From NCBI RefSeq assembly GCF_001485215.1, contig NZ_BBWW01000001.1:5332001-5396000 (forward strand): DNA of 64,000 nt, in the 5' to 3' direction. The translations under genes were made by a program, and so were the position numbers. Source of the stretch: Leptolyngbya sp. NIES-2104 (GTDB taxonomy: Bacteria; Cyanobacteriota; Cyanobacteriia; Leptolyngbyales; Leptolyngbyaceae). Below the pieces are notes generated by a model, which did not search any database, was not told the origin of the DNA, and worked only from the letters and a program-made list of their open reading frames with translations. Below, in pieces: positions 1-23,616 of this stretch (position 1 is its first letter; each line of letters opens with the position of its first letter).

Positions 1-2068
1 GTCTGATGTGTCCTTCAAATTCCCGCAGGAGGTCTTCAAATCTGTCGAGGTCGTTTCGATGTTGCTGGAGGCAGCCGTCAATCTTCTCAAAATTTTGGCT
101 AAGGTCTTCGCTACATCGCTCGATCGCTCGTCTTGCGATAGTTTCTGCAATTCCTTGAGCAGTTCGCTCAACGTCGATTCCTGCAAATCGAGTCGCTTCG
201 ATAGGGAATCGACCTTCTGATTGACTGGCTGCAAAGCTTTCTGCAATGCGCTCTCCAATAGCTGTCCCAATTCGTTCTCCAACACTTTGCTCAACGCATT
301 CTTCAGTGTGGCTTCGTCGAGTTGCACGATCACTTGCGGCGGTTCGAGGATATCTTTCAACGGCGGTCGCTTTTTCCCAAGTTTGGTTGCGGGCATAAGT
401 GTTGTCTTGTAGGTGAGTGAGGGTGATGACAGGTGTTGGGTGCTGATCTGGCGTAAATTGCTTGCCAGTTCTTAGATTCGTTGTAGTGATTCCAAAAGCA
501 GGAAGGGTCTGGAATAGATTGCCTTGCGGCTCTCTTTCGTCTCCGATGAATAGCACCCTAGCTTGCGAAACTTCAGCGCTCTGCATAAGACGATAAAAAT
601 TGTGCGCCGTCAACGATTCCGCTTCCCTAATGAGCCAAATTTCGTTTGATCGTTCTTCGGTCTGATTGAAATCTGATCGAGGGCTAAATTCCTGCACGGT
701 GTAACCTTGACTTTCGGCAATTTGTCGATACAGGGTCAGTGCATAAGTTGGCTCATCTTTTTCCACTCCCTGCCACGCAATAAATTGGTCAGTTGATGTG
801 GCTGCCATTCCTAATCCCTGTCGGCGTTCTTGCGTGAGAAATTCTGTGTCCAGTTCTGCCACGTTTTCCGAGGACGCGATCGCATTCCCAGATCCCTGTC
901 CTTGCTGCACCGTTTGAAGAATCTCCCGCTTGCGTTTGACTGCGGTTTCGGTGGTGTAAAGATTGAGCGACAGATTGATGGCGACGAGTCGATTCATTTC
1001 ATCGATCGCGTTTTGCAGTTGCTCCCAGGATTGCTGTCCGACAGAATCTTCCAGTGCAGGCTGCTCAATCGCTTCTCGGCAAAACTCAAATTCCTGATGT
1101 TCAGCAATCTCAAGCCCCACAACAGCAGCGGTAGCTGCCTTTTCTCTTCCAATTTCCGATACACTTTGGGCTTGATCAGATTCAGGAGTCGGGGGCAATT
1201 CCAATTTTTGTTCAGCGATCGCCCGTTCCCATCCCTCGATCAGCGCATCTAAAGGAATTTCTCTTTTATGCTGACGAGTGTGGAGCGTGGCTTGCTCGTA
1301 CAGTTTGGCATCCTTTGACCGCTCAGATTGTTCTGCGTAACTCTCAATTTGCTGGCGACGAGAGCTGAAGAGATCACAAAGAGGTTTGCTATATCCCCTC
1401 AACTCAAACTGCCCATTCTTCCTCGGCTCGATTTCGTAGCCCATTTGTCGAAGTTCGTAAGCAATCTGATTCTGGTAAATTTGCCCCACAAATTTCTTAT
1501 ATGTGGTCATCTCCTCATTACTCAACGCCCGCCAGCTTCCGTCTTCGAGTTGTGTGGTGTTCAGGACGAATGCGTGGGTGTGGAGCTGCGGATCGCAGTT
1601 CCGACTCGTTGAATGGGGAAACAAAGCAGCCGTAATATTTCTAGTGAGAATTCGTTCTTGGCGTTGCTGTTGTCGATTCCAGACTCTAGCTTGGGGATAG
1701 CGATCTTCCATCGCAGTAAGTGCCACCGTAACCGCATGGTTGTGAGCTGAGATAACTCTTCTATCTTGTTGCAGGAGTGCCGCGATCGAGACGCTTTTGG
1801 GAGCCGAGAAACAGAAGTCTGTTCCCGCCCGATGCTTTTCTAAATTAATCGGTTTCGCGTGCAGCGAGTTCCCTGCCAAATCTACGCCAAGCACCAACTG
1901 ATTGAACACTTCAGGCACAACCTCTCCTTTCAAATTCAGTGTTGCTGCACCTTTGCCGAACCAGCAGGATTGCAATTCAGAGGGATCGTTGCTGTTGAAT
2001 CTACGATCGTCGTCTTTGCCGTGGTAGCCTGCTGCTTCTGTAGCACTCAAATTTTTAGAAGAAAGCAT
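1..2068 (-). CDS. MobF (TrwC/TraI-family) conjugative relaxase, 3' end outside the window
   Basis: The frame is open from ATG 2068 to the window edge (689 codons), so the C-terminus is missing. MobF relaxases nick oriT through an N-terminal tyrosine and usually unwind DNA with a C-terminal helicase. A tyrosine lies at residue 14 (GYHGKDD). The family signature HRAGTDFCFSAPKSVSI lies near residue 80, and the HUH metal-binding histidines are in DPQLHTHAFVLN near residue 160. The helicase part is degenerate: where a Walker A GKT is expected (about residue 425) it reads WQGVEKDEPTYAL, and the Walker B region reads IWLIREAE instead of a DE pair. The visible C-terminal part is helical and charged. 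The adjacent divergent gene at 2497 may be its accessory factor. The relaxase call is firm; loss of helicase activity is inferred. Confidence 0.88.
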   Translation of the reverse strand, partial: MLSSKNLSATEAAGYHGKDDDRRFNSNDPSELQSCWFGKGAATLNLKGEVVPEVFNQLVLGVDLAGNSLHAKPINLEKHRAGTDFCFSAPKSVSIAALLQQDRRVISAHNHAVTVALTAMEDRYPQARVWNRQQQRQERILTRNITAALFPHSTSRNCDPQLHTHAFVLNTTQLEDGSWRALSNEEMTTYKKFVGQIYQNQIAYELRQMGYEIEPRKNGQFELRGYSKPLCDLFSSRRQQIESYAEQSERSKDAKLYEQATLHTRQHKREIPLDALIEGWERAIAEQKLELPPTPESDQAQSVSEIGREKAATAAVVGLEIAEHQEFEFCREAIEQPALEDSVGQQSWEQLQNAIDEMNRLVAINLSLNLYTTETAVKRKREILQTVQQGQGSGNAIASSENVAELDTEFLTQERRQGLGMAATSTDQFIAWQGVEKDEPTYALTLYRQIAESQGYTVQEFSPRSDFNQTEERSNEIWLIREAESLTAHNFYRLMQSAEVSQARVLFIGDEREPQGNLFQTLPAFGITTTNLRTGKQFTPDQHPTPVITLTHLQDNTYARNQTWEKATAVERYPRTAASDRATRRSHTEECVEQSVGERIGTAIGERIAESFAASQSEGRFPIEATRFAGIDVERTAQGIAETIARRAIERCSEDLSQNFEKIDGCLQQHRNDLDRFEDLLREFEGHIR

Positions 2069-2496: not shown

Positions 2497-3057
2497 ATGG
2501 CACGCAAGAAATCAAAAGAAGAGCAAGAACAACCAGACTGGCAGGGAGCTAGAGCAGAATTGGCATTCTGGGCGGAAACCCCAAAAGAAACGCCATTAGA
2601 GAAGTTTGTTCGAGAAGAGTTCAAAATGTTTCAAATGGCTTTAAGTCAGGGTTACACTTTCGCAGATATTGCTAGCTGGTTGAAAGAGAAGAAAGTGCCT
2701 GGAGCTTATTCAAAAAGTGTAGCTGCGGCGATCAAAAAAGTAGAAGCAAAAAGCGAAATCACTCAACTTCCAGCGCAGCTATTTACCGAAATTTCGAGTA
2801 GCTTTTTGCTAGGCGAACCGCAAGCGACGGAAATCAATTCACAGAAGCCTTATCTATTAAAAGGAAAGGAAGCTTGCAAGATTGTGATTGGATTAGAGAC
2901 GCAGCCTGAAGGCAAGATTCAGTTTCGGATTCTTGGAGATGAAGATGAGAAAAATCACGCCATAAAAACAGAAAACATGGTGAAGAATTTGCGCGGACCG
3001 ATCGAGGAAAAAGACTTGAATGCGATCGCAGCAAAGTTGGCAAAAATTGCAGATTGA
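2497..3057 (+). CDS. Hypothetical protein, possible relaxosome accessory factor
   Basis: This is a 186-residue soluble, highly charged protein beginning MARKKSKEEQEQ. Residues about 48-85 (YTFADIASWLKEKKVPGAYS and the following helix) look like a helix-turn-helix that would read DNA. The C-terminal half is a small alpha/beta region ending in a lysine-rich helix. The ATG has a short GGTGAG immediately upstream and follows a 14-bp dyad at 2471-2484 that could be its operator. It is transcribed divergently from the MobF relaxase, the usual place for nickase accessory DNA-binding proteins. That role is inferred from position only; I do not recognise the family. Confidence 0.6.
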   Translation: MARKKSKEEQEQPDWQGARAELAFWAETPKETPLEKFVREEFKMFQMALSQGYTFADIASWLKEKKVPGAYSKSVAAAIKKVEAKSEITQLPAQLFTEISSSFLLGEPQATEINSQKPYLLKGKEACKIVIGLETQPEGKIQFRILGDEDEKNHAIKTENMVKNLRGPIEEKDLNAIAAKLAKIAD

Positions 3058-3154
3058 TTGTGTGTCATTTGTAACGCGATCGCGCATAATGAAACGGCAT
3101 CACTGGGAAAATCGTGATGTCGTTTCTGTAATCATTCAAGGCTTGAGGGCGGGT

Positions 3155-4831
3155 ATGCGAAACCAGAAGGAAACCATTCGCAAGATGGTCACTTATCTGA
3201 ATAACGAGGAAAAAGATGGGGGCTTCTGGTTGCCCAACATTCAGCGTCCCTTCGTGTGGAGTGAGGATCAGATTGAACGGTTGTTCGATTCCATCATGCG
3301 CGAGTATCCAATCAGCACACTGCTGATCTGGCGCACTAAGTCTCCAGTTCGGCGACGGAAATTCATTGACAATTACAAATACTCGCTGAAACTGACTGAT
3401 TTTCATGTGCCAGAGGACAGCAAGGTAAAACTTCTGGTGCTGGACGGTCAGCAACGGTTGCAAAGCCTATTTATCGGACTGAAGGGGAGCTATGAGAAAA
3501 AGGAACTGTTCTTTGACATTCTGAGCGGTGATTTGGTTGCGCCTGAAGACATTCGTTACCGCTTTCGCTTTTTCGATCCTAATACAGCAAAATTTCCGTG
3601 GGTAAAATTCAAAGCCGTTGTTTTCAGCAATGAGCTATTTGGTCGGCTTGCAAGGTCGATCGCGAATGGTGCTGAAGAACCACTCAGCGATGGTCAGCAC
3701 GATCGTATCGAGGATAATGTTGCACGAATCGTCAAGCAGTTTTGCACCGATGAGATCATTGTCTATCAAGAACTCGACGGTGTGGATAATCCCAAGACGT
3801 ATCGGGAAGACGACGTGGTTGAGATTTTCATCCGAGCCAATGCTGGCGGCACGAAACTTGGAAAATCGGATCTACTGTTTTCGCTGCTGACTGCAAGCTG
3901 GGAAGATGCCGACGAAAACTTAGAGGGATTACTGGAAGAATTGAATCGGACGGGTTACGACTTTACTCGCGATTTTATTTTGAAATCTTGCTTGAGTGTT
4001 CTCGATCGCGGTGCGCGGTACGAAGTCTCGAAGTTTCGGGATGGTGTAACGCGGGAAGAAATCGTGGAGAAATGGAACGCGATCGCGGATGCCATCAAAG
4101 CGGTGAAAGATTTCGTGTATGGCAAAACGTTTCTCCGCAGCGATCAGGCGTTGCCGTCCTATCTGTCGCTAATACCCTTGATTTATTTTCGCTATCACTT
4201 CCCCCAGCAGTGGAAAGACGCGCAGGATTTAGACACGTATCTACTCCGCAGCTTAATCACTGGAGCGTTTAGCGGAACGCCAGACAACTTGATCGATAAA
4301 TGTACGCGCCACATCACGGAGATTGGCGATTTTGAGGTGCGCCAAATATTCGACCTCATTCGGGCGGATGGCAGAAACCTTGATATCACCGCAGACACAA
4401 TTTTGAGCCAGCACTATGGCTCGAAAAACATTCATCTGATCTTCAATCTCTGGTACAAAGACTTCAACTATCAGCCAGCTTATGAGGGCAGCCTGCCGCA
4501 GGTGGATCACATTTTTCCACAGTCGCTACTGCGATCGGTGAAAGTTGCGAATCCAGAAACGGGGAGACATAACATCTTGCGCTACAAATGGCAGGAGCGC
4601 GATCGTATTGCGAACTGTATGCTGCTGACGGCTGAAGAGAATGGGGCAGGCGGAAAACGTGATATTCCACCGGAAATCTGGTTCAAAGATAAACCAGATA
4701 GTTATTTGAAGATGCACCTGATTCCTAAAAATCCTGAACTGTGGAAGCTCGAAAATTTTGAAGCATTCATCAAAGCGAGAGAAACGCTAATCATCGAGAA
4801 GTTTCAGCACATGATTCAAGCTACAGAGTAA
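3155..4831 (+). CDS. DUF262/DUF1524 (GmrSD-like) HNH nuclease
   Basis: GmrSD-family enzymes are type IV restriction nucleases: an N-terminal ParB-like NTPase domain (DUF262) and a C-terminal HNH nuclease domain (DUF1524) that attack modified phage DNA. The N-terminus has FWLPNIQRPFVWSEDQIERL and the DUF262 signature LVLDGQQRLQSLFIGLKG. Residues near 465-530 give QVDHIFPQSLL, then IANCMLLTAEENGAGGKRD, a recognisable HNH arrangement. The open frame begins at 3020, but I prefer ATG 3155: this puts the conserved LPNIQRPF about 26 residues in, as usual for the family, and removes an overlap with the upstream gene. An ATG at 3089 is the alternative. The gene is a single-protein fusion of about 558 residues. 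Confidence 0.82.
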   Translation: MRNQKETIRKMVTYLNNEEKDGGFWLPNIQRPFVWSEDQIERLFDSIMREYPISTLLIWRTKSPVRRRKFIDNYKYSLKLTDFHVPEDSKVKLLVLDGQQRLQSLFIGLKGSYEKKELFFDILSGDLVAPEDIRYRFRFFDPNTAKFPWVKFKAVVFSNELFGRLARSIANGAEEPLSDGQHDRIEDNVARIVKQFCTDEIIVYQELDGVDNPKTYREDDVVEIFIRANAGGTKLGKSDLLFSLLTASWEDADENLEGLLEELNRTGYDFTRDFILKSCLSVLDRGARYEVSKFRDGVTREEIVEKWNAIADAIKAVKDFVYGKTFLRSDQALPSYLSLIPLIYFRYHFPQQWKDAQDLDTYLLRSLITGAFSGTPDNLIDKCTRHITEIGDFEVRQIFDLIRADGRNLDITADTILSQHYGSKNIHLIFNLWYKDFNYQPAYEGSLPQVDHIFPQSLLRSVKVANPETGRHNILRYKWQERDRIANCMLLTAEENGAGGKRDIPPEIWFKDKPDSYLKMHLIPKNPELWKLENFEAFIKARETLIIEKFQHMIQATE

Positions 4832-4868
4832 GTTTGTCTTTTCAACTGGCTCTACCTCACCTCGAATT

Positions 4869-6881
4869 TTAAGCCCTCAAATTGGCAAAGTAATCGAGCA
4901 ACTCTCGGTGGAGGAAGCGGTAACGACCGCCGTTGCGTTGTAGGATGCGGCGATCAGTGCAGTAGTTGAGGAATTGCGCCATGTTCCAGGGGGCAATGTT
5001 ATTTTGCCAAAGGACGAAGCGGAGACAAACGTGCTGAATGCAAGCAATTCCACCGCCAAAGTTTATGCCAATCAAAAGCGCCATCAGTAACCCAGGCAGT
5101 AAGAAGTCAGGAAAGTTTGCGATCGCAGCATCTAGAAGACGATCCCACGCTTGTTCGGTGCTTGCCCAACTGATAAGAGGCGAAGACATCGCGAGAATTA
5201 CCCCTGCTGGGTAGCTCAAAGCGCTTGTCCACAGCATACTTTGTAGGGAATTTTGGATACCTTGATTGGGGCGCGATCGTATTTTCAAATTCTGCTTTAG
5301 CCCGCCAATTAGCTCAACAATCAGCCCAACAATCAGCCCAAAAATTAGTCCATCAATCAGCCTACTCAGCCCAAAGATTATCCCATCCCGACCAGAAGAC
5401 AGCCCACCAATCAGCCCAAGCAGTCCAAGAATCAGCCCATAAGTCAGTCCAGCAATTAACCCATTCTTTAACTCGCGTAACGTTTCTCGTCGCACATCCT
5501 GCGACATCGAAACTCTAAAGGATTCGACAGGATCAATATTACTCAGTCTAAAAATCAGCCCAACAATCAATCCATTCAGCCCAACCATCCCAAAAACCAG
5601 CCCAACAATCAGCCCATTCCTTAACTTGCGTGACGTTTCTCGCCGCGCATCCTGCGACATCGAAACTCTGAAGAATTCGGCAGGATCAATATTACTTAGT
5701 CTAAAAATCAGCCCAGCAAACAGCCCAGCAAACAGCGCATTAATCAGCACATCCTGACCAAGAATTAGAATATCAATCAGCCCAACAATCAGCCTAACAA
5801 TCAGCCGATTTCGACGAAGTAACCGGGGTGCTTCAATCCAGTCAGGTTGTATATACTCAATCAGAATCTCTATCTGATTTCTCTGCTGCAACTGCCTCGC
5901 CAACCAACTCAAATATCGTTCTGTTTCTGTACAGTTTGGCTCCTGCTCTACTGTTCTGTAAGCCCAAATTTTCTTTTTTAAGTCCTCCCGCCGATCGCTC
6001 TCCCGCACTTCTTTCGATAACCGTCGATCGACATATCGCCCTAACAGTTCCGCCTCACTCGCAAACGGCGATCGCGGATCATAAACCTGAGCCGCCAGCG
6101 AAAGAAACAACGGAATCCGCAACAATCCCGGATCGCCCTCCTCGGTCGGCTGCATGAATTTTTGCATCGCTGGAACCGTTTGAATTGCGTTCCACAAATC
6201 AGAACCAACGTGCCGTAAATACTCCTGAATTTGTGAGTCGCTCAAGGGCTGAAGACAAACCGCACCATTCAAATTTCCTAACTTCATCCCCACTGTTTCA
6301 AATTCTTTGCTTCGACAGCACACAACCAATTGAGGATAATGCCGCGCAAATTCATTGATCTTTTGCGTACATTTCTGCTGTCGCTCTAGTCCAAGCTCAT
6401 CCAACCCATCTAATAGCGGCAACAGCACCTGTCGATCAACCCATTGCTCATATAATTTCGCTTTCCGATTGCCCCCGTGCAACTCATACAACTGCTCAGT
6501 CAGCCATTGCTCGATCGATTGACTATCCTCGCGCCAAGTAGACAACTCAAACAACACCGGGATCACAGTTTTCGGTTGCGCCAGCGCTCCCATTACTAAT
6601 TGCTCCGCCAATCCTAACAGCGCCGTGGTCTTCCCCGCTCCCGGCGCACCTAAAATTAGCAGTTTTCCCGTCACATCATCGCGCCCAAATGTTTGAATCA
6701 ACAATTGATTCTCGATCGTGCCTCGATCTTCTCCGTGAATCTGTAACCGCCGCTCTGCTTCTAAAGGCGATCGATTCACAGGCGCGAACTGCTCCTCGAT
6801 CGACACCTCCATCAGCGTTCGATTCTGCAACAGCACATCACTCAGCCGCTTGCGAATTTCCGGCAACTGCTTTTTCACCAA
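4869..6881 (-). CDS. NACHT-family NTPase with a hydrophobic GLI-repeat membrane domain
   Basis: The protein has 670 residues. A NACHT STAND ATPase occupies about 60-300: Walker A GAPGAGKTTALLGLAEQL, Walker B LLPLLDGLDELGL and the sensor-like VVCCRSKEFE. Residues about 360-560 form an unusual hydrophobic region rich in GLIxGL units, predicted to cross the membrane many times, and contain two near-identical copies of a block with IFRLSNIDP and FRVSMSQD. The end has YRFLHRELLDYFANLRA, a C-terminal motif common in bacterial NACHT proteins. STAND ATPases of this type often act as oligomerising immune sensors. It is last in a tight operon after two small proteins (12-bp and 7-bp gaps), so the three probably work together. 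A membrane-damaging defence role is inferred. Confidence 0.82.
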   Translation of the reverse strand: MVKKQLPEIRKRLSDVLLQNRTLMEVSIEEQFAPVNRSPLEAERRLQIHGEDRGTIENQLLIQTFGRDDVTGKLLILGAPGAGKTTALLGLAEQLVMGALAQPKTVIPVLFELSTWREDSQSIEQWLTEQLYELHGGNRKAKLYEQWVDRQVLLPLLDGLDELGLERQQKCTQKINEFARHYPQLVVCCRSKEFETVGMKLGNLNGAVCLQPLSDSQIQEYLRHVGSDLWNAIQTVPAMQKFMQPTEEGDPGLLRIPLFLSLAAQVYDPRSPFASEAELLGRYVDRRLSKEVRESDRREDLKKKIWAYRTVEQEPNCTETERYLSWLARQLQQRNQIEILIEYIQPDWIEAPRLLRRNRLIVRLIVGLIDILILGQDVLINALFAGLFAGLIFRLSNIDPAEFFRVSMSQDARRETSRKLRNGLIVGLVFGMVGLNGLIVGLIFRLSNIDPVESFRVSMSQDVRRETLRELKNGLIAGLTYGLILGLLGLIGGLSSGRDGIIFGLSRLIDGLIFGLIVGLIVELIGGLKQNLKIRSRPNQGIQNSLQSMLWTSALSYPAGVILAMSSPLISWASTEQAWDRLLDAAIANFPDFLLPGLLMALLIGINFGGGIACIQHVCLRFVLWQNNIAPWNMAQFLNYCTDRRILQRNGGRYRFLHRELLDYFANLRA

Positions 6882-8573: not shown

Positions 8574-8864
8574 TCAAGTATCAATTACTCGGTATCCACT
8601 TTCAGTCTCCTGAAGCAAACCTAGTGCGATAGCTTCATCTAAAAAGGGCTGAATTGCTTCATTCGATGTGATCTTGCGATCGCGCTTATTGCCCCATAAA
8701 AGAATGGCATTCCGTCGTGTAATCACTGTTCCAATTTTGGTCTTTAACCATCGAATAAAGTCACCCATTAATGGCAAAGCATCTGTCTCATCAAAATCAC
8801 TTGCAAGATCGTCGTAGAGCGATCGTGGATCTTCAGAGTTAGTGACATCACTTGATTCAAAAAA
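8574..8864 (-). pseudogene. Out-of-frame C-terminal part of the ATPase at 8857, separated by a T-run frameshift
   Basis: Reading minus-strand codons without a stop from the T-run at 8864-8859 to the stop at 8574 gives about 95 residues (FFESSDVTNSEDP ... MGDFIRWLKTKIGTVITRRN ... LLQETESGYRVIDT), ending in what looks like a small winged-helix fold. There is no convincing start: only a TTG at 8777 and an internal ATG. It joins the preceding ATPase exactly if the six-T run is read as five, so it is best seen as the displaced C-terminus of that gene, or as a product of slippage. Confidence 0.6.
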
Positions 8865-10263
8865 GGTATCGCGTTCTGTCAGGCGAACTGGATTCGACCA
8901 ATTCTTCTAATCGTTGACGATCGCTTTTCTGAATCGATTGATGAGAAGAAACCGAAGTAAAATTCGCGGCAACCTTTGTCGAATTCATTAGAGGAAGCCA
9001 ACGACCTGCTACCCCAATTAATCGATCGAGTCCCAATTCTTCACATTCATCCAAAACATCGCGATCGGGCTTTCGCTCCGGAGCCAGCCCATTATTCTTC
9101 GCCGTGAGATATGTTGTTTCGTTCCAGCCAGGAGTTGCAGTCGGCACTTGTGCGACAAAGATAGGATTCATTGCCGTGACATTCGCTTTGGTCAGCCCCA
9201 AATCACCCATCGCTCCGGTCGGTGCGAGTGCCCAAATTACTAAACCGCGTTTACTTCCCATGCTAGAAATATCAGCCAGCTTGCCTTTCACCCCATTGAC
9301 AAACTGAGTCGCGATCGCAGAATCCAAGCGTACTGCCGTTCCCATGATGCTATTGAGTTCATCAATCACGAGGATTTTAGGACGTTCAACGCTCGAAGGC
9401 ATTGTGGTGAATTCTTCAAGCAAATCGTTCCACACGCCATAGGCAAGTCGCTTCTGCGTGTCGGACAACTCAGGGAAATAAAAGCCGGAAACGCGATCGC
9501 ACATTGACCAATAGCGCCCATCTTCTTCAGGAATAAAGCCAGCCGAGATATAAAAAATACTGACATTTTGACCGAACCGTAACCGGACGAAACCAAGAGC
9601 ATCTGAAGCGAGTTGTGATTTTCCCGTACGCGAAGCGCCAATAATAATTCGAGAGATGATAAATTTCCCAGCCGCCATCATCTCGGCAATGTTCATAATT
9701 TTGCGAACATTCTGAGGCGCGACCGGAGGTTGGGCTTGGGTCATATTTTGCTGAGAGAATGCTGCGATTTTGGAGGAATTGACAGTTTCACGAGATTGAA
9801 CTGGATCAGGTGGGTAATGTGCCCAGTTCGAGGTGTCTTCAGCTTGTGGAAGCACAGGCTTATCGTGTTTTAGCTCATACTGTTCTGGGAAATCCCAAGC
9901 TCGATTGCTCAACTCAACCCCTCGTGTATCCGCAAATTTCAGCTCCTGGTAGACAGCATCACGACCTGCTTGCTCGACAAAATCCTGAAAATCATCACCT
10001 TCCAAGAATGGTGCAGCCAGCCCATTCTTGATAATCAGGTCTTTTGCCTTCTGTTTTTGAGTTTCTTTGTCGAAGATGCGTTTGACCATCAAAAGTCCGA
10101 TCGCAATCCCTGCAATCGGAGAGGCAAAGCTGGCAACTCCCAAACCCGCAAACAGGGCAACCGCAGTATCCAGCATATAGCTGTCTTGATCGAGAGTCTC
10201 AAACGCACGTTCGCGCCACTCGATCGGTTCGCGATGATTCGATTTCGCAACAAAGCTAGACAT
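8857..10263 (-). CDS. Membrane-anchored P-loop ATPase of the element, FtsK/HerA- or coupling-protein-like
   Basis: The product has 468 residues from ATG 10263, which has GGGGAT upstream; the upstream in-frame codons look non-coding. A hydrophobic pair of segments at about 35-65 (AVALFAGLGVASFASPIAGI and on) anchors the protein. Walker A is IIIGASRTGKSQLASDAL at about 220, and Walker B is KILVIDELNSIMG at about 300. The arrangement (N-terminal membrane hairpin plus cytosolic RecA-like ATPase) matches DNA-pumping or coupling ATPases of mobile elements; a coupling-protein role is inferred from the relaxase nearby. It is the last gene of a leftward operon starting at the partition genes. A run of six T at the end causes a stop, and the frame continues in +1 to 8574; the full protein would be about 562 residues. 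Confidence 0.7.
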   Translation of the reverse strand: MSSFVAKSNHREPIEWRERAFETLDQDSYMLDTAVALFAGLGVASFASPIAGIAIGLLMVKRIFDKETQKQKAKDLIIKNGLAAPFLEGDDFQDFVEQAGRDAVYQELKFADTRGVELSNRAWDFPEQYELKHDKPVLPQAEDTSNWAHYPPDPVQSRETVNSSKIAAFSQQNMTQAQPPVAPQNVRKIMNIAEMMAAGKFIISRIIIGASRTGKSQLASDALGFVRLRFGQNVSIFYISAGFIPEEDGRYWSMCDRVSGFYFPELSDTQKRLAYGVWNDLLEEFTTMPSSVERPKILVIDELNSIMGTAVRLDSAIATQFVNGVKGKLADISSMGSKRGLVIWALAPTGAMGDLGLTKANVTAMNPIFVAQVPTATPGWNETTYLTAKNNGLAPERKPDRDVLDECEELGLDRLIGVAGRWLPLMNSTKVAANFTSVSSHQSIQKSDRQRLEELVESSSPDRTRYLF

Positions 10264-10319
10264 AATGAATATCCCCAAACGTGAATACCAGGACGAGCGC
10301 ACCCGTCCTGGACAGTCAG

Positions 10320-12317: not shown

Positions 12318-12524
12318 TTAGCTATCCAGCAAGGCAAGCAATTCTTCATCTGCGGTTTCAGTTGATTGAGACGAGAGATTAGTTTGCACAGTCCGTTGTT
12401 TGAGTTGTCGCTTGTAATCGTTCAAAACGAAAGTAATGATCTCGGTAGGATCGTCTGTCCCCAGTTGTGTACCGATTTCGTTAACAAAGGGCTGGAGATA
12501 TTCCCGAATGCTGCAACGCACCAT
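12318..12524 (-). CDS. Small protein following ParM, possible ParR-type adaptor
   Basis: The 68-residue protein starts at the codon overlapping the ParM-like stop, a layout typical of parMR operons. The helical core (SIREYLQPFVNEIGTQLGTD, then EIITFVLNDYKRQLKQ) would fit a ribbon-helix-helix or helical DNA-binding adaptor, and the polar tail could contact the filament. It is shorter than classical ParR proteins (about 115 residues), so the assignment rests on position and is tentative. Confidence 0.6.
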   Translation of the reverse strand: MVRCSIREYLQPFVNEIGTQLGTDDPTEIITFVLNDYKRQLKQRTVQTNLSSQSTETADEELLALLDS

Positions 12525-13558
12525 CAGCTACCTCTTCGTTGCTTTAGTTGGGCAAGTTTTGCAAGACCACGAGCGTTTGCCCAATGCCCTTGAGTAATCG
12601 GCGTAATTCCCTTTGCAGTCAGTAGTTGCGTGATTTGAGGAAGTTCAGAACCTCCACCTACTGCCAGAACTGCGCTGCTGGTAGCTCTCCAAGGTTCGCC
12701 TGCCTTTAACGCCGTAGCGAGGGTAGATTGCACCCACGGTTTCAGTTCGACTTGATAGATGTGGCGGAAATTCCAGCCAGTCGTACCATACTCAAAGGTT
12801 TTTGCCTCGATCCCGGCTCTAATGATCTGACGATCGCCTTCACCATTTAATTGTTTGCGGGTTTCTAGATTTCGAGCGATCGCATCAATTAAATTCTCGA
12901 CTCCACCTGGCGTAACTTTGCGAATGAGAAGTTTTCCTTTCGCACCAAAAACGCTGATGATGCAAGTTCCGTTGCCGAAGTCATAGAGAAGGGACTGTCC
13001 TTCTGACTCAATTTCGGATCTGGCAGTCACGATCGCGCCCACACCTTCTTCAACAACTGCGACGACTTTGACCCCGATCGTTGACACTTCTTTTCCATTG
13101 AAGCGAACAGTATGATTGCCATTGAGCAAGCTAGAAAGCTCATGACCAAAAGCTTGGGCATCTTGAATGCTGGCTACGAGCGTGAATGCCCAGTGAGACT
13201 GATGCGGCAGAGTTGCGATCGTGCCCAACAAAAGTTGTAAACCGTAATTCAATTTGCCTCGCCGATCATCCACAACGCGATAGTAACCCATAGGATTTTG
13301 CTGGTAGGCACTAATGCCTGATAGCCATCGATGGCTAATTAGCTCAGAGCGATCGCCACTAACGTATTCAACTAAACCAGTCAAAGGATCATAAATTTCG
13401 CTGTAAATTGGTAAAACATAAGACGGAATTAGGATTTCAGTCTCCTCAAAGATTAGATTTGTAGAGCCATTGCCGCAATCAAAACCTGCTGAAAGATTAA
13501 TGAGCGGTGACCGCCTGTAAGTGGTTGTAGCTGTCAGTGCTGAAGTGTTGGGTGTCAT
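12524..13558 (-). CDS. parM: ParM/StbA-like actin-family plasmid segregation protein
   Basis: ParM proteins are bacterial actins that form filaments to push plasmid copies apart. The phosphate-1 motif FDCGNGSTNLIFEE lies near residue 25, the phosphate-2 region reads SLLYDFGNGTCIISVF near 190, and the adenosine region AVLAVGGGSELPQITQLL lies near 310. I start at ATG 13558, with AGGG upstream; the open frame extends to a TTG at 13636 across a promoter-like TATATA. It is followed with a one-base overlap by the small gene at 12318 and preceded by a repeat-rich region at 13677-13762 that may be the centromere. It heads the leftward operon of the element, consistent with an autonomously maintained form. 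Confidence 0.8.
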   Translation of the reverse strand: MTPNTSALTATTTYRRSPLINLSAGFDCGNGSTNLIFEETEILIPSYVLPIYSEIYDPLTGLVEYVSGDRSELISHRWLSGISAYQQNPMGYYRVVDDRRGKLNYGLQLLLGTIATLPHQSHWAFTLVASIQDAQAFGHELSSLLNGNHTVRFNGKEVSTIGVKVVAVVEEGVGAIVTARSEIESEGQSLLYDFGNGTCIISVFGAKGKLLIRKVTPGGVENLIDAIARNLETRKQLNGEGDRQIIRAGIEAKTFEYGTTGWNFRHIYQVELKPWVQSTLATALKAGEPWRATSSAVLAVGGGSELPQITQLLTAKGITPITQGHWANARGLAKLAQLKQRRGS

Positions 13559-13676
13559 GCTATTGACCCTATATAAGTAATTCAAAGCCTTGTAGCGTGA
13601 GGCATTAGCTGAAGATTTCCGTCTTGATTGGTTCACTGGCAGCGATTCCCAACCAGAGTTTAGAATTGGCTACCTC

Positions 13677-15319: not shown

Positions 15320-15447
15320 GGCAGTCAAGTTTGCGAAAACAGCATTTACTTCTGGAGGTAATTACTACTCAAGAAAGTTGGATTCGCAAAGGGTTGACGT
15401 GAAGCCGTCAAACTCCGCAACCAGTGATAACTACAGTGCGAATGGGC

Positions 15448-15505
15448 GGGGAGACTAACTGAAAGCTTTGGCGAGCGCAGAAGTTAGTATCCCCTTGATT
15501 CACTA
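15448..15505 (-). ncRNA. Predicted antisense RNA against the rep leader hairpin
   Basis: On the minus strand a TAGAAT box (15517-15512) lies 18 bp after TTGCGT, a weak but usable sigma-70-type promoter. A transcript from about 15505 would cover the leader hairpin and expose the complementary loop. No clear terminator is seen, so the 3' end is unknown. Predicted only from the parallel with IncI/IncFII antisense RNAs. Confidence 0.35.
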
Positions 15506-15532
15506 TTTCTAATTCTAGGGGAACTTCACTCT

Positions 15533-15610
15533 ATGACGCAAGAGTGTCATTGGATAAATTACCCTAGCCGCTGCATGGTCAACATCTCTAGCGCTCGCCT
15601 TTTGAACTAA
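15533..15610 (+). CDS. Leader peptide of the replication gene (RepY-like), 25 residues
   Basis: ATG 15533 follows AGGGGA by 10 bases and reads MTQECHWINYPSRCMVNISS plus five residues to TAA at 15608. The last codons run through the pseudoknot partner at 15591-15599, and the stop falls inside the loop of the hairpin that sits beside the rep ribosome binding site. A ribosome finishing here would open that hairpin, exactly what RepY translation does upstream of repZ. The sequence itself is not conserved with known leader peptides as far as I can tell; position is the argument. Confidence 0.6.
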   Translation: MTQECHWINYPSRCMVNISSARLLN

Positions 15611-15645
15611 TCGAAAAACTAAGAACGAGCGTAAGGTTTTGCCCA

Positions 15646-18318
15646 ATGTCAGCAAAGACTCAATTCATTGATCGCAATGTAGTGATTGCATTCCTCTCAT
15701 TGCTCGGATATCAGGACAACGACGAAGTTTTCCTTCGGTTTTTCTACCCTAGCGGTGACCCTCGCAAAAAATCGGATAAAGGCAGGAAGTTGAACGCCAA
15801 GTTTCCTAACTTACCTTGGGAACAGATGGAGCAATTGCAATCGGCAGGTTATGGGTGCTATGTAGTTGTAAATGGGGGCGGACATAGGGACTCAGAGGTA
15901 ATTTTGGGTCGTGCGATTTTTTATGAACACGACAACCTGGATAAAGTGGTTTCTCGTGATCTTTGGAAAACACTGAATCTGCCTGAGCCGACTTGCCAAG
16001 GAGATACGGGCGGAAAAAGTATCCACACTTATCTACGCTTGTCGAATTGCACTATTGATCAATGGACGAATCTACAGCTTGATTTGCTGGAATTTGCAGA
16101 TGCCGATCGCAGTAACAAAAACCCCAGTCGTGTGATGCGCCTTATTGGTGCTACCTATCTTGCACCTGGACGGGAGCCAGTTCAGTCCGAGCTTATCAGT
16201 TGTTCTAACAAAGTCTACACTTACGAAGAATTGCGAGCGGCTATTCCTAGACGAAATGAGTTAGCGATCAAGCGGCAGTGGAGTGAATTTGATCGACAAT
16301 TCAAATTGCCCACGACTAAGCGAGTACCTTTAATCGAGTGTCTCAGCAGAGCTAATCGTGTACTAATTGAGCAGGGCACTGGAGAAGGGCAACGCAACGA
16401 TCGAGGATATGCTCTTGCTTGCGATTTGATTGGTGTTTCCAATTACCTGTCCAAAATTGCTCAACCTTACGAGGGTGAACCAAAGTTGTTATTTGAGCAG
16501 TACTGTAGCCTCTGCTCACCACCTTTAGAAGTTGCCGAAGCTGAATCAATCTGGCGAAGCGCAGAAGTGAGATCAACAGGCAGCAGTTTGTCTGAAAGTC
16601 AAATCGAAAATTGCATCAAAGGCTGGGAATGGCGGCAGAGATCGCAAGAGACTCCTTCAGAAATTTACAAGAGCCATTCAGAGGTGAATTACAAAGTTCC
16701 TGAGCAGACTAAAGCTGAACCCACTGAAGACCTCCCAAACTTTGAAGACACTATGCAACAGTTAGATTTGATCTTTGAGGTCTTTGGAGTCGGAACAGCC
16801 CGCTGGAAATGGGAAATTGGAGTTTTAGCTAAAGCGGTTAAACGAAGTCGATCAGAACTCCTCGAAATTTACCAAGACAAACAGAGCGAGACTGAACCGT
16901 TCGCCCCGGTTGATGTCACGGACTTTCTCAGTTCAGACCAACCGGAGCGCGAATGGTTGATTGCTGGGCACGTTAGCCTTGCTAGCACGATCGGTCTCAT
17001 TGCTGATGGCGGCGTTGGTAAAACCTTGTTGGTGTATGACTTGTGCAAGGCGATCGCGACGGGCAACTCCTGGAACGGATTCAGATCGAAGCGATCAAAG
17101 GTGCTAATAATCCAGACTGACGAACCAGAAGTCGATACTAGGGAACGCTTAAATATTGCTGGTTTTCAAGCTTTAGAAGCTGGCTGGATCTTTATTGAAA
17201 CGAATTGGCAATTCTGCAAAATAAGACAGTTAGAAGACTGGATCGAACAGCATTTTGCGAGTGAAAGTGGGTTTGTGGTAATTGACTCAATGTCCTCGGC
17301 AAACCGCTCCACACAAGCCGAAGAAAAGGATTCGTCTTACGCGGCTCCACTCTACAGCTTAAGAGACATTGCAAATCGAAGAAACGTCACATTCGTCATA
17401 CTTCACCACACCAATAAAATGGGCGGTGCACGAGGAACGACGGCTTTTCGGAACAACTTGTCTGAAGTCTGGGTGTTGCGAAAAGGAGACCCCAAAGACA
17501 ATTTAAAGCCAACACAGCGAATTTTAGAGATCGAGAAGTCGAGGTCAGGCTGTAACGGAATTTTCCAGATTGAGCTTAACGTTGATGATTACTCTTGGGA
17601 CTATCAGGGTGATTTTGGGCTGGACGAAAACACACCTGTTCCATTGAAAGCGAGAATTCTCAGTTGGTTAGAGCAAAACCGTGGAACGAAATACGAAGCT
17701 GAAGAGTTACTAGAAGTTTCCACAGTAGGTGCTGGCAGCACAAAAGAAGCCATTCGCAAGCAGTTAGAACGGTTGAAGCGGCAAGGGTTAGTAGACTGTG
17801 AGGACCGCACTCGCCAATCTCAGGCTGGTACCCGTCGTTACAAAGTTTATTTCCTACCTGCTGCTCCAGTAGCTTCTGGACAAAGCCCTGACTCGCCTAC
17901 CCTAGAAGCTTGTCCAGAAGCTAGTGCGAATCACTCATATCCAGATGCAGCAAGCCTTAGACCTTCTGGACAAGCTTCTGGACAATTAGCTTCTGGACAG
18001 CTTCAATGCGAACTTACAGAACTCACCTTGCCATTTGCCTCTGGTGAATACGCCGAAGACGATTGGACGGAGATTGAGAACGCTGCTGCTCCCAATCCTG
18101 AAGAAAATGGCAGGGATTTAGCGATCGGGGACAAAGTTCTTGCATACCACTCAGAACATTGGGAAGAGGCAGTCGTACTTAAGATTCCAATCAATGCTTC
18201 AAACGGCAAGAGTATTCGTTGCTGGAAGGTTCGTTTAGCAAACGGAAATGAAGTTCATATTTGGGAGCGCAGAAATTTAGCACCGCCTCACCATATACCT
18301 GACCAGTCCGAACTGTGA
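15646..18318 (+). CDS. Plasmid-type primase-helicase replication protein
   Basis: The product has 890 residues. The N-terminal 330 residues resemble replication primases of the RepB/AEP type (VVVNGGGHRDSEVILGRAIF and FYEHDN, then STHTYL-like KSIHTYLRLSNC and the helical SRVMRLIGATY). A RecA-like helicase follows at about 425-660: Walker A LIADGGVGKTLLVYDLCKAI, Walker B FVVIDSMSS, and FVILHHTNKMGGARGT. A winged-helix segment lies near 680-735. A repeat-rich Pro/Ser/Gly linker encoded at 17870-18000 follows, then a small SH3/KOW-like end (IGDKVLAYHSEHWEEAVVLK). AAGG nine bases upstream of ATG serves as ribosome binding site and is controlled by the structured leader. The primase label for the N-terminus is moderate; the helicase is clear. 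Confidence 0.78.
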   Translation: MSAKTQFIDRNVVIAFLSLLGYQDNDEVFLRFFYPSGDPRKKSDKGRKLNAKFPNLPWEQMEQLQSAGYGCYVVVNGGGHRDSEVILGRAIFYEHDNLDKVVSRDLWKTLNLPEPTCQGDTGGKSIHTYLRLSNCTIDQWTNLQLDLLEFADADRSNKNPSRVMRLIGATYLAPGREPVQSELISCSNKVYTYEELRAAIPRRNELAIKRQWSEFDRQFKLPTTKRVPLIECLSRANRVLIEQGTGEGQRNDRGYALACDLIGVSNYLSKIAQPYEGEPKLLFEQYCSLCSPPLEVAEAESIWRSAEVRSTGSSLSESQIENCIKGWEWRQRSQETPSEIYKSHSEVNYKVPEQTKAEPTEDLPNFEDTMQQLDLIFEVFGVGTARWKWEIGVLAKAVKRSRSELLEIYQDKQSETEPFAPVDVTDFLSSDQPEREWLIAGHVSLASTIGLIADGGVGKTLLVYDLCKAIATGNSWNGFRSKRSKVLIIQTDEPEVDTRERLNIAGFQALEAGWIFIETNWQFCKIRQLEDWIEQHFASESGFVVIDSMSSANRSTQAEEKDSSYAAPLYSLRDIANRRNVTFVILHHTNKMGGARGTTAFRNNLSEVWVLRKGDPKDNLKPTQRILEIEKSRSGCNGIFQIELNVDDYSWDYQGDFGLDENTPVPLKARILSWLEQNRGTKYEAEELLEVSTVGAGSTKEAIRKQLERLKRQGLVDCEDRTRQSQAGTRRYKVYFLPAAPVASGQSPDSPTLEACPEASANHSYPDAASLRPSGQASGQLASGQLQCELTELTLPFASGEYAEDDWTEIENAAAPNPEENGRDLAIGDKVLAYHSEHWEEAVVLKIPINASNGKSIRCWKVRLANGNEVHIWERRNLAPPHHIPDQSEL
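17872..17999. repeat. Direct and inverted GCTTCTGGACA repeats inside the rep gene
   Basis: Direct copies of GCTTCTGGACA or one-mismatch variants are at 17872-17882, 17962-17972, 17974-17984 and 17989-17999, and an inverted copy (TGTCCAGAAGC) is at 17911-17921. They encode repeated ASGQ-type residues in a linker. As a cluster of Rep-sized sites inside the rep gene they are candidate iterons of an origin. Confidence 0.6.
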
Positions 18319-18479: not shown

Positions 18480-18780
18480 ACGCGCTGAAGCAATTCTCAA
18501 TCACATTGAAGTCGAATACTTTTCACCTCAAAGTGAATGGGTGGATAAACACGCTGCTTCTAAGATTGTGAACAAACACTGGCAAACGCTGAACGTTTGG
18601 AGACGCGATAAAGCGAAGGGCTTAATCGAAGGGATTCACTGGCAGCACGACGGCGGTGAAGTCGTGTATCACGCTGAGATGCTGAAAGACTGGTATCGTC
18701 ACCGTCGCAATCCTGAAGCTCACTTACGCACCATTGAGCAATCTGCCAAATCTCAGGCAAAGCGGCGCAAACCTGCCTAG
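18427..18780 (+). CDS. Xis-like small DNA-binding protein
   Basis: The 117-residue protein starts at GTG 18427. An N-terminal helix is followed by SEWVDKHAASKIVNKHWQTL and VWRRDKAKGLIEGIHW, the pattern of a winged-helix/excisionase fold in which a helix is followed by a lysine-rich wing, and a basic tail (SAKSQAKRRKPA). It ends four bases inside the convergent integrase gene. Excisionases (recombination directionality factors) commonly sit beside the integrase, which is the main argument for this role. Confidence 0.55.
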   Translation: MTTENSTEILIRAIAILERAEAILNHIEVEYFSPQSEWVDKHAASKIVNKHWQTLNVWRRDKAKGLIEGIHWQHDGGEVVYHAEMLKDWYRHRRNPEAHLRTIEQSAKSQAKRRKPA

Positions 18781-19925
18781 TCCGCCAGAATATCAGGAGT
18801 CGCGATCATGCCCACTGATTCCAAATACGAATCTTTCAGCACTTTGGGATCGTGCCTCGTAATCGTTGCGACCTGCTCGATCGTCATTCCGTGTTCATAA
18901 ATTGCATTACTGACAAAACTTTTTCTCAGCGTGTAAGGTCGCCTGTAGTCGATATTCTGTTTTTTGAGTATTGTTTTCCATGCTCCTTTATAAAACGTCT
19001 TTGCATTCAAATTCCCGCCTTTTTTGCCGGGGAAAACAAGCGCTTCTGGGTCAAAGTCCTCTGGTCTTCTTCGTTTCAGTAGTTCGCTAACTCGCAGTGG
19101 TAGATTGACGATCGCGGCATTGTGCGCCTTGGTTGGTTTGCGCTTATTTTTCGTGGTAATCGATTCGCCAATCCAGACCTCAGTTAGCTCATCATTAAAG
19201 TGCTTCCATTGCAGTGCAAGCGCTTCTCCGGTTCGACATCCCATCGACAAAAAGAATTCAACAAAATCAGCATAGTAACTGTATTGAGGGTCAGTTCGGA
19301 ATGCTTGAACGATCTCTCTTAGCTCAGTTGTGCTAAATGCTTTTTCGCCTTGGGTTGGGGCAACTTTAATCGATTCGTGTACGACCTTCCAAGGATTGCG
19401 ACCCTTGACGTACTCGCGATCGCTTGCCCAGTCCCACAACGCTTTCATCATGCCGATGCGCTCCTTTAGCGTCACGTCGCTGAGTTTCGTTGCTAAGTAA
19501 TCTCGAAATCGAGCAGCACCAGATTCGTCCAGCGTGGAAACGGGATTCTTTTTGAAAAACTCCTTTACCGTGTTAAAAAGTGCCTTGTACTTATCGAGCG
19601 TCGTTTCGTACACTTTCTCAACTTCGATTTTGTACTCTAGCCACCGCTCATATAGTGTTACCACACTCAAAGTCGTAGACTGAAGCTGACGATCGGTATA
19701 TTTATTCAAACTGGGATCAAACTGTCGGGTGTGGAGATCCGATTCAATCTGACGCGCCTTGGCTTCCGCGATGCGACGATTGATTTCAGTGTCGGGTAGC
19801 CCCAATGCCAAGTAGAAACGTTTACCGTTACCACCGAGATCCTTTGTCCATGTCCAACGGAGTTTGAGCCGGTCATCGATCGGCAGAATAGTAACGGTTC
19901 CCGATGTAGATTTTGCTCTAGGCAT
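18777..19925 (-). CDS. Tyrosine recombinase (integrase) of region A
   Basis: The 382-residue integrase has an N-terminal arm-binding domain (KRFYLALGLPDTEINRRIAE, then KARQIESDLHTRQFDPSL), a SAM-like core-binding domain and a catalytic domain. The catalytic residues read GCRTGEALAL (Arg I), the lysine hairpin TTKNKRKPTKAHNA, YTLRKSFVSN (Arg II, with Tyr where His is usual), TRHDPKVLKDSY (His/Trp position and nucleophilic Tyr). The gene points away from the tRNA-Pro, and its start lies 228 bp from the tRNA 3' end. It should integrate the element into the tRNA-Pro 3' end. Its N-terminal domain closely resembles that of the integrase at 30677, and both have ACACCA-type repeats upstream. Confidence 0.88.
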   Translation of the reverse strand: MPRAKSTSGTVTILPIDDRLKLRWTWTKDLGGNGKRFYLALGLPDTEINRRIAEAKARQIESDLHTRQFDPSLNKYTDRQLQSTTLSVVTLYERWLEYKIEVEKVYETTLDKYKALFNTVKEFFKKNPVSTLDESGAARFRDYLATKLSDVTLKERIGMMKALWDWASDREYVKGRNPWKVVHESIKVAPTQGEKAFSTTELREIVQAFRTDPQYSYYADFVEFFLSMGCRTGEALALQWKHFNDELTEVWIGESITTKNKRKPTKAHNAAIVNLPLRVSELLKRRRPEDFDPEALVFPGKKGGNLNAKTFYKGAWKTILKKQNIDYRRPYTLRKSFVSNAIYEHGMTIEQVATITRHDPKVLKDSYLESVGMIATPDILAD

Positions 19926-20034: not shown

Positions 20035-20152
20035 AAACACTCTAGAACCCAACAAAATCGCTCCAGATTCATCAGCTAGTCTACACCAAGCGCAAAGGCG
20101 CACCAAAAGCGAAGGAGGCTCAAAACCCTTCAGTTTCAAGCCTCCCAGCTAA

Positions 20153-20226
20153 TCGGAGCGGCGGGATTTGAACCCACGACCCCTACTACCCCAAAGTAGT
20201 GCGCTACCAAGCTGCGCTACGCCCCG
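20153..20226 (-). tRNA. tRNA-Pro (anticodon GGG)
   Basis: The 74-nt cloverleaf is complete: acceptor CGGGGCG/CGCTCCG with one G-U pair, D-arm, an anticodon stem CTACT/AGTAG closing the loop TTGGGGT (anticodon GGG), and a T-arm with GGTTCAAAT. The CCA is not encoded. Region A abuts its 3' end (left side), so this is the probable attachment target of the integrase at 18777. Confidence 0.93.
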
Positions 20227-22773: not shown

Positions 22774-23616
22774 TCACGCTTTTGCTTCTTTCATGTTCAC
22801 ATTCTTTAGACTACTACAATACACTTGATTCGGTGTCTTGTATTCTAATCCTTGATGTGGTCTGACTTGATTGTACCATTGAAACCAGTGTTTCACTTCT
22901 TGATTCAAATGCTGTCCATTCTCGAATGACTTGAGATAAATCAACTCATACTTCAAACTCCGCCATAATCGCTCAATGAAAATGTTGTCATGACATCTGC
23001 CTCGCCCATCCATGCTGATGTTGATTTGAGCTGCTTGGAGACAATCGATGAACGCTGTCGCCGTGAACTGTGCGCCTTGATCACTGTTAAAGATCTCTGG
23101 CTTGGGATAACCCGCTAATGCTTCATCCAATGCCTCCACACAAAACGCCACTTCTAACGTGTTTGAGATGCGCCATGACAAGACTTTGCGGCTGTACCAG
23201 TCCATCACTGCTACCAGGTAAAAGTGTCCCTTCGCGCCTGGAAGATAGGTAATGTCGGTACACCAGACCTGATTCGCATTCGTAATGGCTAATCCTCGCA
23301 GCAGATAGGGATAAATCCGATGCTCTGGATCGGCTTTGCTGGTATTGGGTTTCGGATAGATCGCATACAACCCCATCTCCCGCATCAACCGTTGCACCCG
23401 TTTTCGATTCACGTTGTACCCTCGCGATTGCAGAAACACCGTCATTTTCCGACTGCCGTAAAACGGCGTTTCCAAGTATTGTTCGTCGAGCAACCGCATG
23501 ATTGCCAGTTCTTCTTCCGACGGCGGCAAAGCTTGGTAGTAGAAACTCGATCGCGCAATGCCCAACAATTCACACTGACGCACAATGCTCAACTCTGGAT
23601 GCTCTGAATCTACCAA
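22774..23616 (-). CDS. IS3-family transposase OrfB (DDE integrase domain)
   Basis: The 280-residue catalytic subunit carries the IS3 DDE triad: WCTDITYLPGAKGHFYL (first Asp), IFNSDQGAQFTATAF (second Asp) and DNIFIERLWRSLKYELIYL (Glu), with the HTH-like QCELLGIARSSFYYQALPP at its N-terminus. It overlaps OrfA by a few bases. The full transposase is made by -1 slippage from OrfA at TTTTTTA (23664-23658), after which the reading continues SQQVGTIGLADRKAL into this frame. Confidence 0.9.
   Translation of the reverse strand: MVDSEHPELSIVRQCELLGIARSSFYYQALPPSEEELAIMRLLDEQYLETPFYGSRKMTVFLQSRGYNVNRKRVQRLMREMGLYAIYPKPNTSKADPEHRIYPYLLRGLAITNANQVWCTDITYLPGAKGHFYLVAVMDWYSRKVLSWRISNTLEVAFCVEALDEALAGYPKPEIFNSDQGAQFTATAFIDCLQAAQINISMDGRGRCHDNIFIERLWRSLKYELIYLKSFENGQHLNQEVKHWFQWYNQVRPHQGLEYKTPNQVYCSSLKNVNMKEAKA

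Follow-up and report, generated by a model that had tools for sequence, protein, structure and literature searches.

The window analysed here is a stretch of 64,000 nucleotides from Leptolyngbya sp. NIES-2104 (contig NZ_BBWW01000001.1, positions 5,332,001 to 5,396,000), and the leader of its replication gene (rep) raises the question of how synthesis of the encoded Rep protein is controlled. An original prediction, made from the letters of the window, had proposed a switch like that of the IncI plasmid ColIb-P9. The repZ leader of ColIb-P9 has a UUGGCG loop, the RepY leader open reading frame (ORF), a pseudoknot that frees repZ and an antisense RNA directed against the loop. Comparison with other cyanobacterial sequences points to a widespread, apparently antisense-controlled family of replication leaders in cyanobacteria, and the leader of the window would be a member of this family and no lone IncI look-alike. 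With a probability of roughly 0.7, this leader, which lies on an integrated element, is a divergent member of a family of antisense-RNA switches in which the flank of a hairpin, X, captures a downstream site, X', and keeps a second hairpin, T, from forming. In the window, the following parts were found (positions are those of the window; SD, Shine-Dalgarno sequence):

15444..15450, plus strand: X (GGGCGGG), the flank of P1; 7 pairs with 15594-15600, two of them G-U
15448..15494, plus strand: P1, the target hairpin; GGGGA-G-ACTAACT with AGTTAGT-A-TCCCC, a variable apex on a constant CTAAC/GTTAG stem
15465..15478, plus strand: apex of P1, GCTTTGGCGAGCGC, in which 15470-15478 is complementary to 15591-15599
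15512..15517, minus strand: predicted antisense -10 element, TAGAAT; predicted start at about 15504
15517..15522, plus strand: SD-like AGGGGA of a short leader ORF, judged by sequence only
15533..15610, plus strand: leader ORF of 25 codons, with its stop codon inside the loop of T
15536..15541, minus strand: predicted antisense -35 element, TTGCGT; 3 of 6 consensus bases, spacer 18
15591..15600, plus strand: X', forming the 5' arm of T; can also pair with the P1 loop (9 Watson-Crick) and with X (7, including G-U)
15592..15631, plus strand: T, the SD-hiding hairpin; CGCTCG (15592-15597) with CGAGCG (15626-15631)
15633..15636, plus strand: SD of rep, AAGG, one base after the 3' arm of T
15646..18318, plus strand: rep, 890 aa, start codon ATG at 15646; PrimPol (AEP) N-terminal domain and AAA_25 ATPase

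All leader elements that had been claimed are present at their coordinates and a single correction was necessary: the hairpin at 15448-15494 exists, but the 13 pairs assigned to it are 12 pairs and one G15453/A15489 mismatch. The loop GGCGAGCGC (15470-15478) indeed has an exact 9-nt complement, GCGCTCGCC, at 15591-15599, and TCCCCT at 15490-15495, proposed to mask the AGGGGA of the leader ORF at 15517-15522, is found in the sequence. The competing stem 15592-15597/15626-15631 ends one base before the AAGG of rep and holds the stop codon of the leader ORF in its loop. An antisense RNA had been expected from about 15505, and the promoter match TTGCGT-18-TAGAAT places a predicted start near 15504. 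The overall layout, a rep leader with an antisense-target hairpin and an SD-hiding stem whose 5' arm can be captured by an upstream element, was supported.

A DNA similarity search covering 42 genomes of the host's taxonomic family, plus plasmids, found matches to the hairpin in four other genomes and two L. boryana plasmid records, at 84% over about 44 bp. The genes behind these first hairpins differed and were either CyRepA1 (on AP018204.1; NCBIfam NF042913) or an unnamed gene. A covariance model built from five sequences including the window (R1) matched 41 places in 28 of 388 cyanobacterial genomes, window included, and a second model built from 43 matches (R2) matched 68 places in 39 of the 388 genomes and 24 of 160 genera. 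The window, which was in both training sets, matched R1 at 66.6 bits and R2 at E 9.5e-13. Twenty-seven of the R2 places lie outside the first set; the hairpin of one of these later loci, L182, had already entered the R2 alignment, where it counted as a second hit in L111. A second member is present in the window's own genome on a separate contig (L190, G000:C4:66963-67008); it has a different apex and precedes a gene of the CyRepA1 cluster. At the gathering score Rfam matched none of 8 member or related loci, and in the window it matched two tRNAs only, none at the leader. No matches to R1 or R2 at E ≤0.01 were found among relatives of the window's Rep, some of whose loci hold little upstream DNA. 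Among 16 named plasmid loci two matched at this threshold, Kovacikia pB and Acaryochloris pMB09; the former was picked by its gene and is apparently the same plasmid as contig G012:C3, and the latter had been found earlier by leader similarity. Relatives in viral contigs were not found. Nor was a published account of the leader family, in a search that covered few subscription papers, so the family may be published.

Comparison of the members indicated that the stem of P1 covaries: across 42 distinct sequences, 95.8% of 450 cells were paired and changes on both sides were seen at 6 of 11 pairs, and none of 500 shuffles did as well. Mean column entropy was higher in the loop (0.88) than in the stem (0.41). 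Furthermore, a promoter was predicted on the opposite strand. In 41 members its mean score was 9.29 (5.68 in shuffles and 6.38 on the plus strand), with the -10 element within +59..+72 in 38 of them; in the 27 later members it was 9.65 (5.84 and 6.15, respectively), with 23 starting at +57..+68. The best site started with TTG in 41/41 and 27/27 members. The promoter of the window, TTGCGT-18-TAGAAT at +65..+70, scored 8.7 compared with a shuffled mean of 5.9; a generic promoter scan did not report it. A putative antisense terminator, defined as a minus-strand hairpin with a T-run 10-110 nt upstream of P1, was found in 64 of 68 members, the same criterion being matched on the plus strand in 11 of 68 and in 13% of 204 shuffles. 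A scan for perfect stems, which gave 8 of 68 on the minus strand and thus about the shuffled rate of 0.13, was discarded; folding with bulges gave the 64 of 68. Since promoter and terminator are both conserved on the opposite strand, an antisense RNA gene is predicted. In loci L092-L131 the terminator hairpin upstream of P1 (CCCC..CTG..CAG..GGGG) looks conserved at the sequence level and CTAG motifs stand before it; a role of this hairpin on the sense strand is possible.

The conserved long-range partner was looked for next to P1 and in its loop. X, the bases directly before P1, pairs in the family with a site X' 100-200 nt downstream. In the 41 members the helix had -15.77 kcal/mol, compared with -13.28 kcal/mol after permutation, and none of 5000 permutations was as good (0/2000 in an earlier run; 0/5000 with 23 non-redundant members). 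The 25 later members, which had not been used to form the X:X' idea (two of the 27 later loci were too short and were dropped), gave -15.46 vs -12.29 kcal/mol and again 0/5000. The controls showed no such signal in the 41 members, neither for an upstream segment (4876/5000) nor for X against +200..300 (4378/5000; some later loci are too short for this control, which covers the 41-member set), and the upstream segment gave 2300/5000 in the later set. Examples of X/X' are CGGAACAGAGC/GCTCTGTTCCG (L196), ACGGGAGG/CCTCCCGT (L188), ACAGGAGG/TCTCCTGT (L190), CAGATAGGGGG/CTCCCTATCTG (L189) and GAATAGAGCGT/ACGCTCTGTTC (L122). X' sits in the 5' arm of a local hairpin, with 70% of its bases paired downstream in the 41 members vs 49% at random. 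Among the 58 members whose X is strong, 35 have an SD with a start codon in the 3' arm of this hairpin, T, whereas random placement gave this in 14% of 290 cases; T is followed by a U-run in 8 of 41 members, and the T of the window has none.

The P1 loop behaved differently. Its pairing with the downstream region, which the original prediction had taken for a conserved IncI-type pseudoknot, was near the permutation level across the family (1106/2000 and 2791/5000; 559/5000 with 23 non-redundant members; 2950/5000 in later members) and was rejected as a family rule. The proposed search for covariation between loop and 15591 site found none across the family, and the closest relative of the window by Rep, L002, keeps rep and has no loop partner (best 5 pairs), a result that the original prediction had listed among those that would refute it. 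The leader ORF fared no better as a conserved IncI-type part, an ORF at the window's place being present in 3 of 68 other sequences and not in L002. By these comparisons the conserved partner of X' is the flank X, not the loop, and the IncI label is partly right in its logic and not supported as a conserved mechanism.

For the window itself the loop has more in its favour. Here the P1 loop, instead of X, might capture the 5' arm of T and free the SD of rep, helped by the ribosome on the leader ORF. The 9 Watson-Crick pairs coincide exactly with the 5' arm of the stem that hides the SD, which counts in favour of the match, and of 41 loops that of the window fits this region best (0/40 others as good). 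Weakly low values were obtained for loops against +100..200 (507/5000 and 396/5000), and downstream loop matches are also seen in L117 (11 pairs, some G-U) and its relative L129 (8). The fold of 15430-15660, which contains T, has -70.1 kcal/mol (z -2.71; 3 of 200 shuffles fold equally well). Forcing X:X' gave -54.9 kcal/mol at the cost of part of P1, and keeping loop and X' free for the pseudoknot gave -53.0 kcal/mol before about -22.7 kcal/mol of stacking and unquantified penalties, a rough energy comparable with that of T. The mean unpaired probability of 15632-15637, the SD of rep, was 0.18 with T and 0.50-0.54 without it; in these calculations T would be favoured by energy when nothing else acts. 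X' of the window has three possible partners, the 3' arm of T, X and the P1 loop. Against the loop speak the lack of a family-wide signal, the lack of a partner in L002 and the apex itself, which is partly closed in the fold by an inner mini-stem (15465-15468 with 15473-15476) that must open. Double shuffling produced a 9-nt match 65 times in 5000 trials, and 12 out of 1694 real 150-nt stretches taken from the window had one; at least 9 exact pairs were found in the window alone among 66 members tested, which is about the number that the chance rate predicts for 66. The match is unusual without being decisive; either chance (about 1%) or a variant private to the window may account for it. A loop switch in the window would be physically reasonable, though unsupported by any relative, and we regard it as possible but clearly the lesser candidate for this leader.

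What, then, is controlled by the leaders of the flank-pairing family? A downstream ORF of at least 120 aa was found at 60 of the 68 places; seven of the other eight end at a contig edge. When the genes were grouped into BLAST clusters, 59 of the 60 fell into Rep or candidate-Rep clusters: 33 belong to an unnamed type and 24 to the CyRepA1 cluster, one is the window's PrimPol type, and one is a short type to which the gene behind the Acaryochloris pMB09 leader also belongs. The sixtieth, the gene of L186, is unlike a Rep. CyRepA1 was demonstrated by experiment to be a Rep, as described for plasmid pSYSA (PMC9978351). NCBIfam named CyRepA1 above cut-off in 11 of 15 tested cluster members and below cut-off in L126; it gave no such name to the remaining three, L102, L116 and the fragment L096. 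Among plasmids, relatives of the unnamed type turned up in 66 records, and of the 40 listed two are annotated as 'replication-related protein' and most others as 'hypothetical'. The working label 'AEP-like' for this commonest type found no support in any library or in the PDB and was replaced by 'unnamed'. Its role as Rep is a guess from its position, because no library or PDB match names the type. In a quick tree of 59 leaders (9 of the 68 members carry no main gene label and were left out) the two main labels switch at least 8 times (9 each vs the rest; shuffled mean about 19); well-supported branches force 2-3 of these changes, and long branches leave parts of the tree unsure. Apparently, genes of different types have exchanged the leader module. 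With one cassette in front of unrelated genes, the control of replication would evolve as a module of its own, apart from the replication protein. On Acaryochloris 'Moss Beach' pMB09, a gene annotated as FinO-like (L143, 3686-4039) lies on the opposite strand and overlaps the end of the leader's gene. FinO-family proteins assist the pairing of antisense RNAs, and the gene would fit an antisense model.

In the model that we propose, the leader of the rep mRNA would form P1, and the adjacent X would capture X'. With its 5' arm occupied in this way, T could not form, and Rep, or a short leader ORF to which Rep is coupled, would be translated. A short ORF ending on or near the rep start was seen in 16 of 37 members by a loose, uncontrolled criterion, and a few of these ORFs look spurious. 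The antisense RNA would start just downstream of P1, run back through P1 and X and end, in nearly all members other than the window, at the upstream terminator. After contact with the variable apex of P1 it would zip up and mask X; T would then form, the ribosome site would be hidden or transcription ended, and replication would drop. More copies would yield more antisense RNA and thereby negative feedback, and replicons with like apices would be incompatible. In the window, T would hide the SD of rep directly, and either X or the P1 loop, or the two together, could capture X'. We infer the existence of the antisense RNA, its action and copy control from the conserved parts; the switches of the family probably set the copy number of plasmids and integrated elements in this way. 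The apex differed in 57/57 pairs of members residing together in 11 genomes (two of the 27 later loci, too short, were left out), and the absence of shared loops within a genome is in line with loop-specific incompatibility.

Several findings weigh against the X:X'/T model or against the place of the window in it. The first statistic for X (duplexfold with interior loops, +85..330) gave no signal (mean rank 0.47); the signal appeared with contiguous helices and +100..200 and then held in the later members. At the strictest redundancy cut that leaves more than one member, 4 members remained and 220/5000 permutations were as good, and the idea that X is an exact copy of the 3' arm of T was dropped as not significant (1170/5000). 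Identical loops at a leader identity of at least 0.8 occurred in 0 of 32 pairs within genomes and 4 of 107 between genomes, which is not significant. The unnamed type, the largest with 33 of 60 genes, received no name from Pfam, NCBIfam or PDB when one to three members were tested. The Synechocystis plasmid pSYSA, compared below, matched weakly (R1 E 1.1, R2 E 0.015) and has no antisense terminator by the definition used for the family. Finally, the cells of P1 give little indication of its polarity, 15 being G-U and 11 A-C. This would also suit a leader that acts as a DNA site, either an origin or a binding site for Rep or integrase, and inverted repeats are common at origins. A DNA site is hard to reconcile with long-range covariation of X and X', with a strand-specific promoter and terminator and with the same module standing before genes of unrelated clusters, and we consider it highly improbable.

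Other points concern the window and its closest relative. The best leader identity of the window to other members is 54%, its -35 element matches just 3 of 6 consensus bases, and by the family criterion it has no antisense terminator within 250 nt, as one of 4 among 68. Its X:X' helix is short, weak and unfavourable in the fold, 11 of 40 other X being equally good against its downstream region. L002 has the CTAAC/GTTAG hairpin, an antisense promoter (TTGCGT-17-TAAAAT) and an antisense terminator; it was matched neither by R1 nor by R2, and its X helix is unremarkable, with 11 of 68 other X equally good. By eye L002 had looked like a clean case of X pairing with T (GCAGGA/TCCTGC), a reading that was weakened when the formal test placed the best X helix elsewhere. 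On the comparative evidence the window is a divergent member of the family, an outlier, and it is filed only as such because the antisense terminator is absent. The missing terminator, the weak -35 element and the long branch would all be expected if the module were a decaying relic on an integrated element that regulates nothing any more. We regard decay as unlikely, since P1, T, the promoter spacing and an open Rep of 890 aa are retained and the end repeats of 50 bp are identical.

These repeats probably delimit the element, of which two further parts were located:

18777..19925, minus strand: tyrosine integrase of the element, adjoining tRNA-Pro
20151..20200, plus strand: repeat of 50 bp within tRNA-Pro, with an identical copy at G000:C1:5307800-5307849; the two are likely att sites

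The two identical copies of the repeat are about 44.4 kb apart, and leader and rep appear to be part of an integrated element of about 44 kb, inserted in the tRNA-Pro gene. The N-terminus of Rep resembles the PrimPol-type domain of PDB 6zp9 (E 1.1e-19). L002, the closest relative by Rep, matches at 61% over its N-terminal part, and a closer one was not found in 42 genomes of the order. Two rep homologues with equal scores were seen about 102 kb apart on a single contig (G026:C70:20119-21135 and 122320-123336). Defence-like genes are abundant on the element (L154 3149-6747, L154 13051-19224 and window 3020-6881) and code for Cmr2 and RAMP proteins (type III CRISPR), a DUF499/HEPN_Swt1 and DUF1156 pair, a GmrSD-type restriction protein and a NACHT ATPase. 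An actin-like (ALP_N) protein (window 12524-13636) and a protein with a sub-threshold match to AAA_25 (8857-10302) possibly serve partition and transfer functions. An IS-type transposase gene (rve domain, window 22774-23616) lies beyond the tRNA, just outside the element.

Information on cyanobacterial Rep proteins is limited, according to PMC10899382, which also describes antisense RNAs at the starts of two further rep genes from cyanobacteria. The original prediction had known of no such control in a cyanobacterial element. This was not quite right: for pSYSA of Synechocystis, an antisense RNA that is abundant and covers ssr7036, which lies upstream of CyRepA1, is published (PMC9978351). pSYSA resembles the family in that this antisense RNA lies over a cyanobacterial rep leader. 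In the record of a sister strain, analysed by eye and by folding, ssr7036 also contains a hairpin with the apex GCTTTGGACGGC and has an X-like GCAGGGGG at its stop, the place at which asRNA1 starts according to PMC9978351, and a further hairpin covers the annotated start region of CyRepA1. The ssr7036-CyRepA1 region (L141, 1418-1790) can be read as an X/T switch. pSYSA differs from the family in its leader protein of 64 aa and in the published model, a ColE1-like primer control, in which the overlapping RNAs would act on the priming of DNA synthesis and not on Rep synthesis. The observation in PMC9978351 that extra ssr7036 RNA raises the copy number even with a stop codon speaks for priming; titration of the antisense RNA would, in our view, explain this effect in trans equally well. 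Since covariation of X and X' and a T that covers ribosome sites or precedes U-runs point to control of expression, primer-type control is distinctly unlikely for the family, and the X:X'/T model offers a testable alternative for pSYSA. It would matter beyond this plasmid: cyanobacteria often hold several large plasmids together, and a shared cassette with a variable apex allows compatibility groups to be predicted straight from the sequence and provides parts for setting copy number in laboratory cyanobacteria.

In plasmid pT181, an antisense RNA blocks a pre-emptor that otherwise breaks a downstream hairpin. The family model shares this pre-emption logic; it differs in that T often covers ribosome sites and has U-runs in 8 of 41 members, in its cyanobacterial hosts and in its Rep proteins. 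The plasmids of the I-complex (IncI/IncB/IncK) are like the family in the single target hairpin with a UUGGCG-like loop and the SD-hiding stem, and like part of it in leader ORFs coupled to rep. Unlike in the I-complex, the conserved partner in the family is the flank and the antisense gene has a terminator hairpin of its own, and the initiator of the window, PrimPol plus AAA_25, is probably a different protein from RepZ. How far a single base can matter is illustrated by IncK plasmids, in which one base of RNAI sets compatibility (PMC10724649). The CopA/tap/repA system of IncFII also has a leader ORF ending at or near the rep start, as in the 16 of 37 members found by the loose criterion above; the family differs from it by the alternative long-range helix X:X'. 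One modular antisense cassette, swapped several times among unrelated rep genes, may set the copy number and compatibility of many plasmids and integrated elements in cyanobacteria, and in the element of the window capture may have moved from the flank, as in pT181, to the loop, as in IncI. We hold this combined scenario to be doubtful, but if true, such a move within one family would link two textbook architectures by descent.

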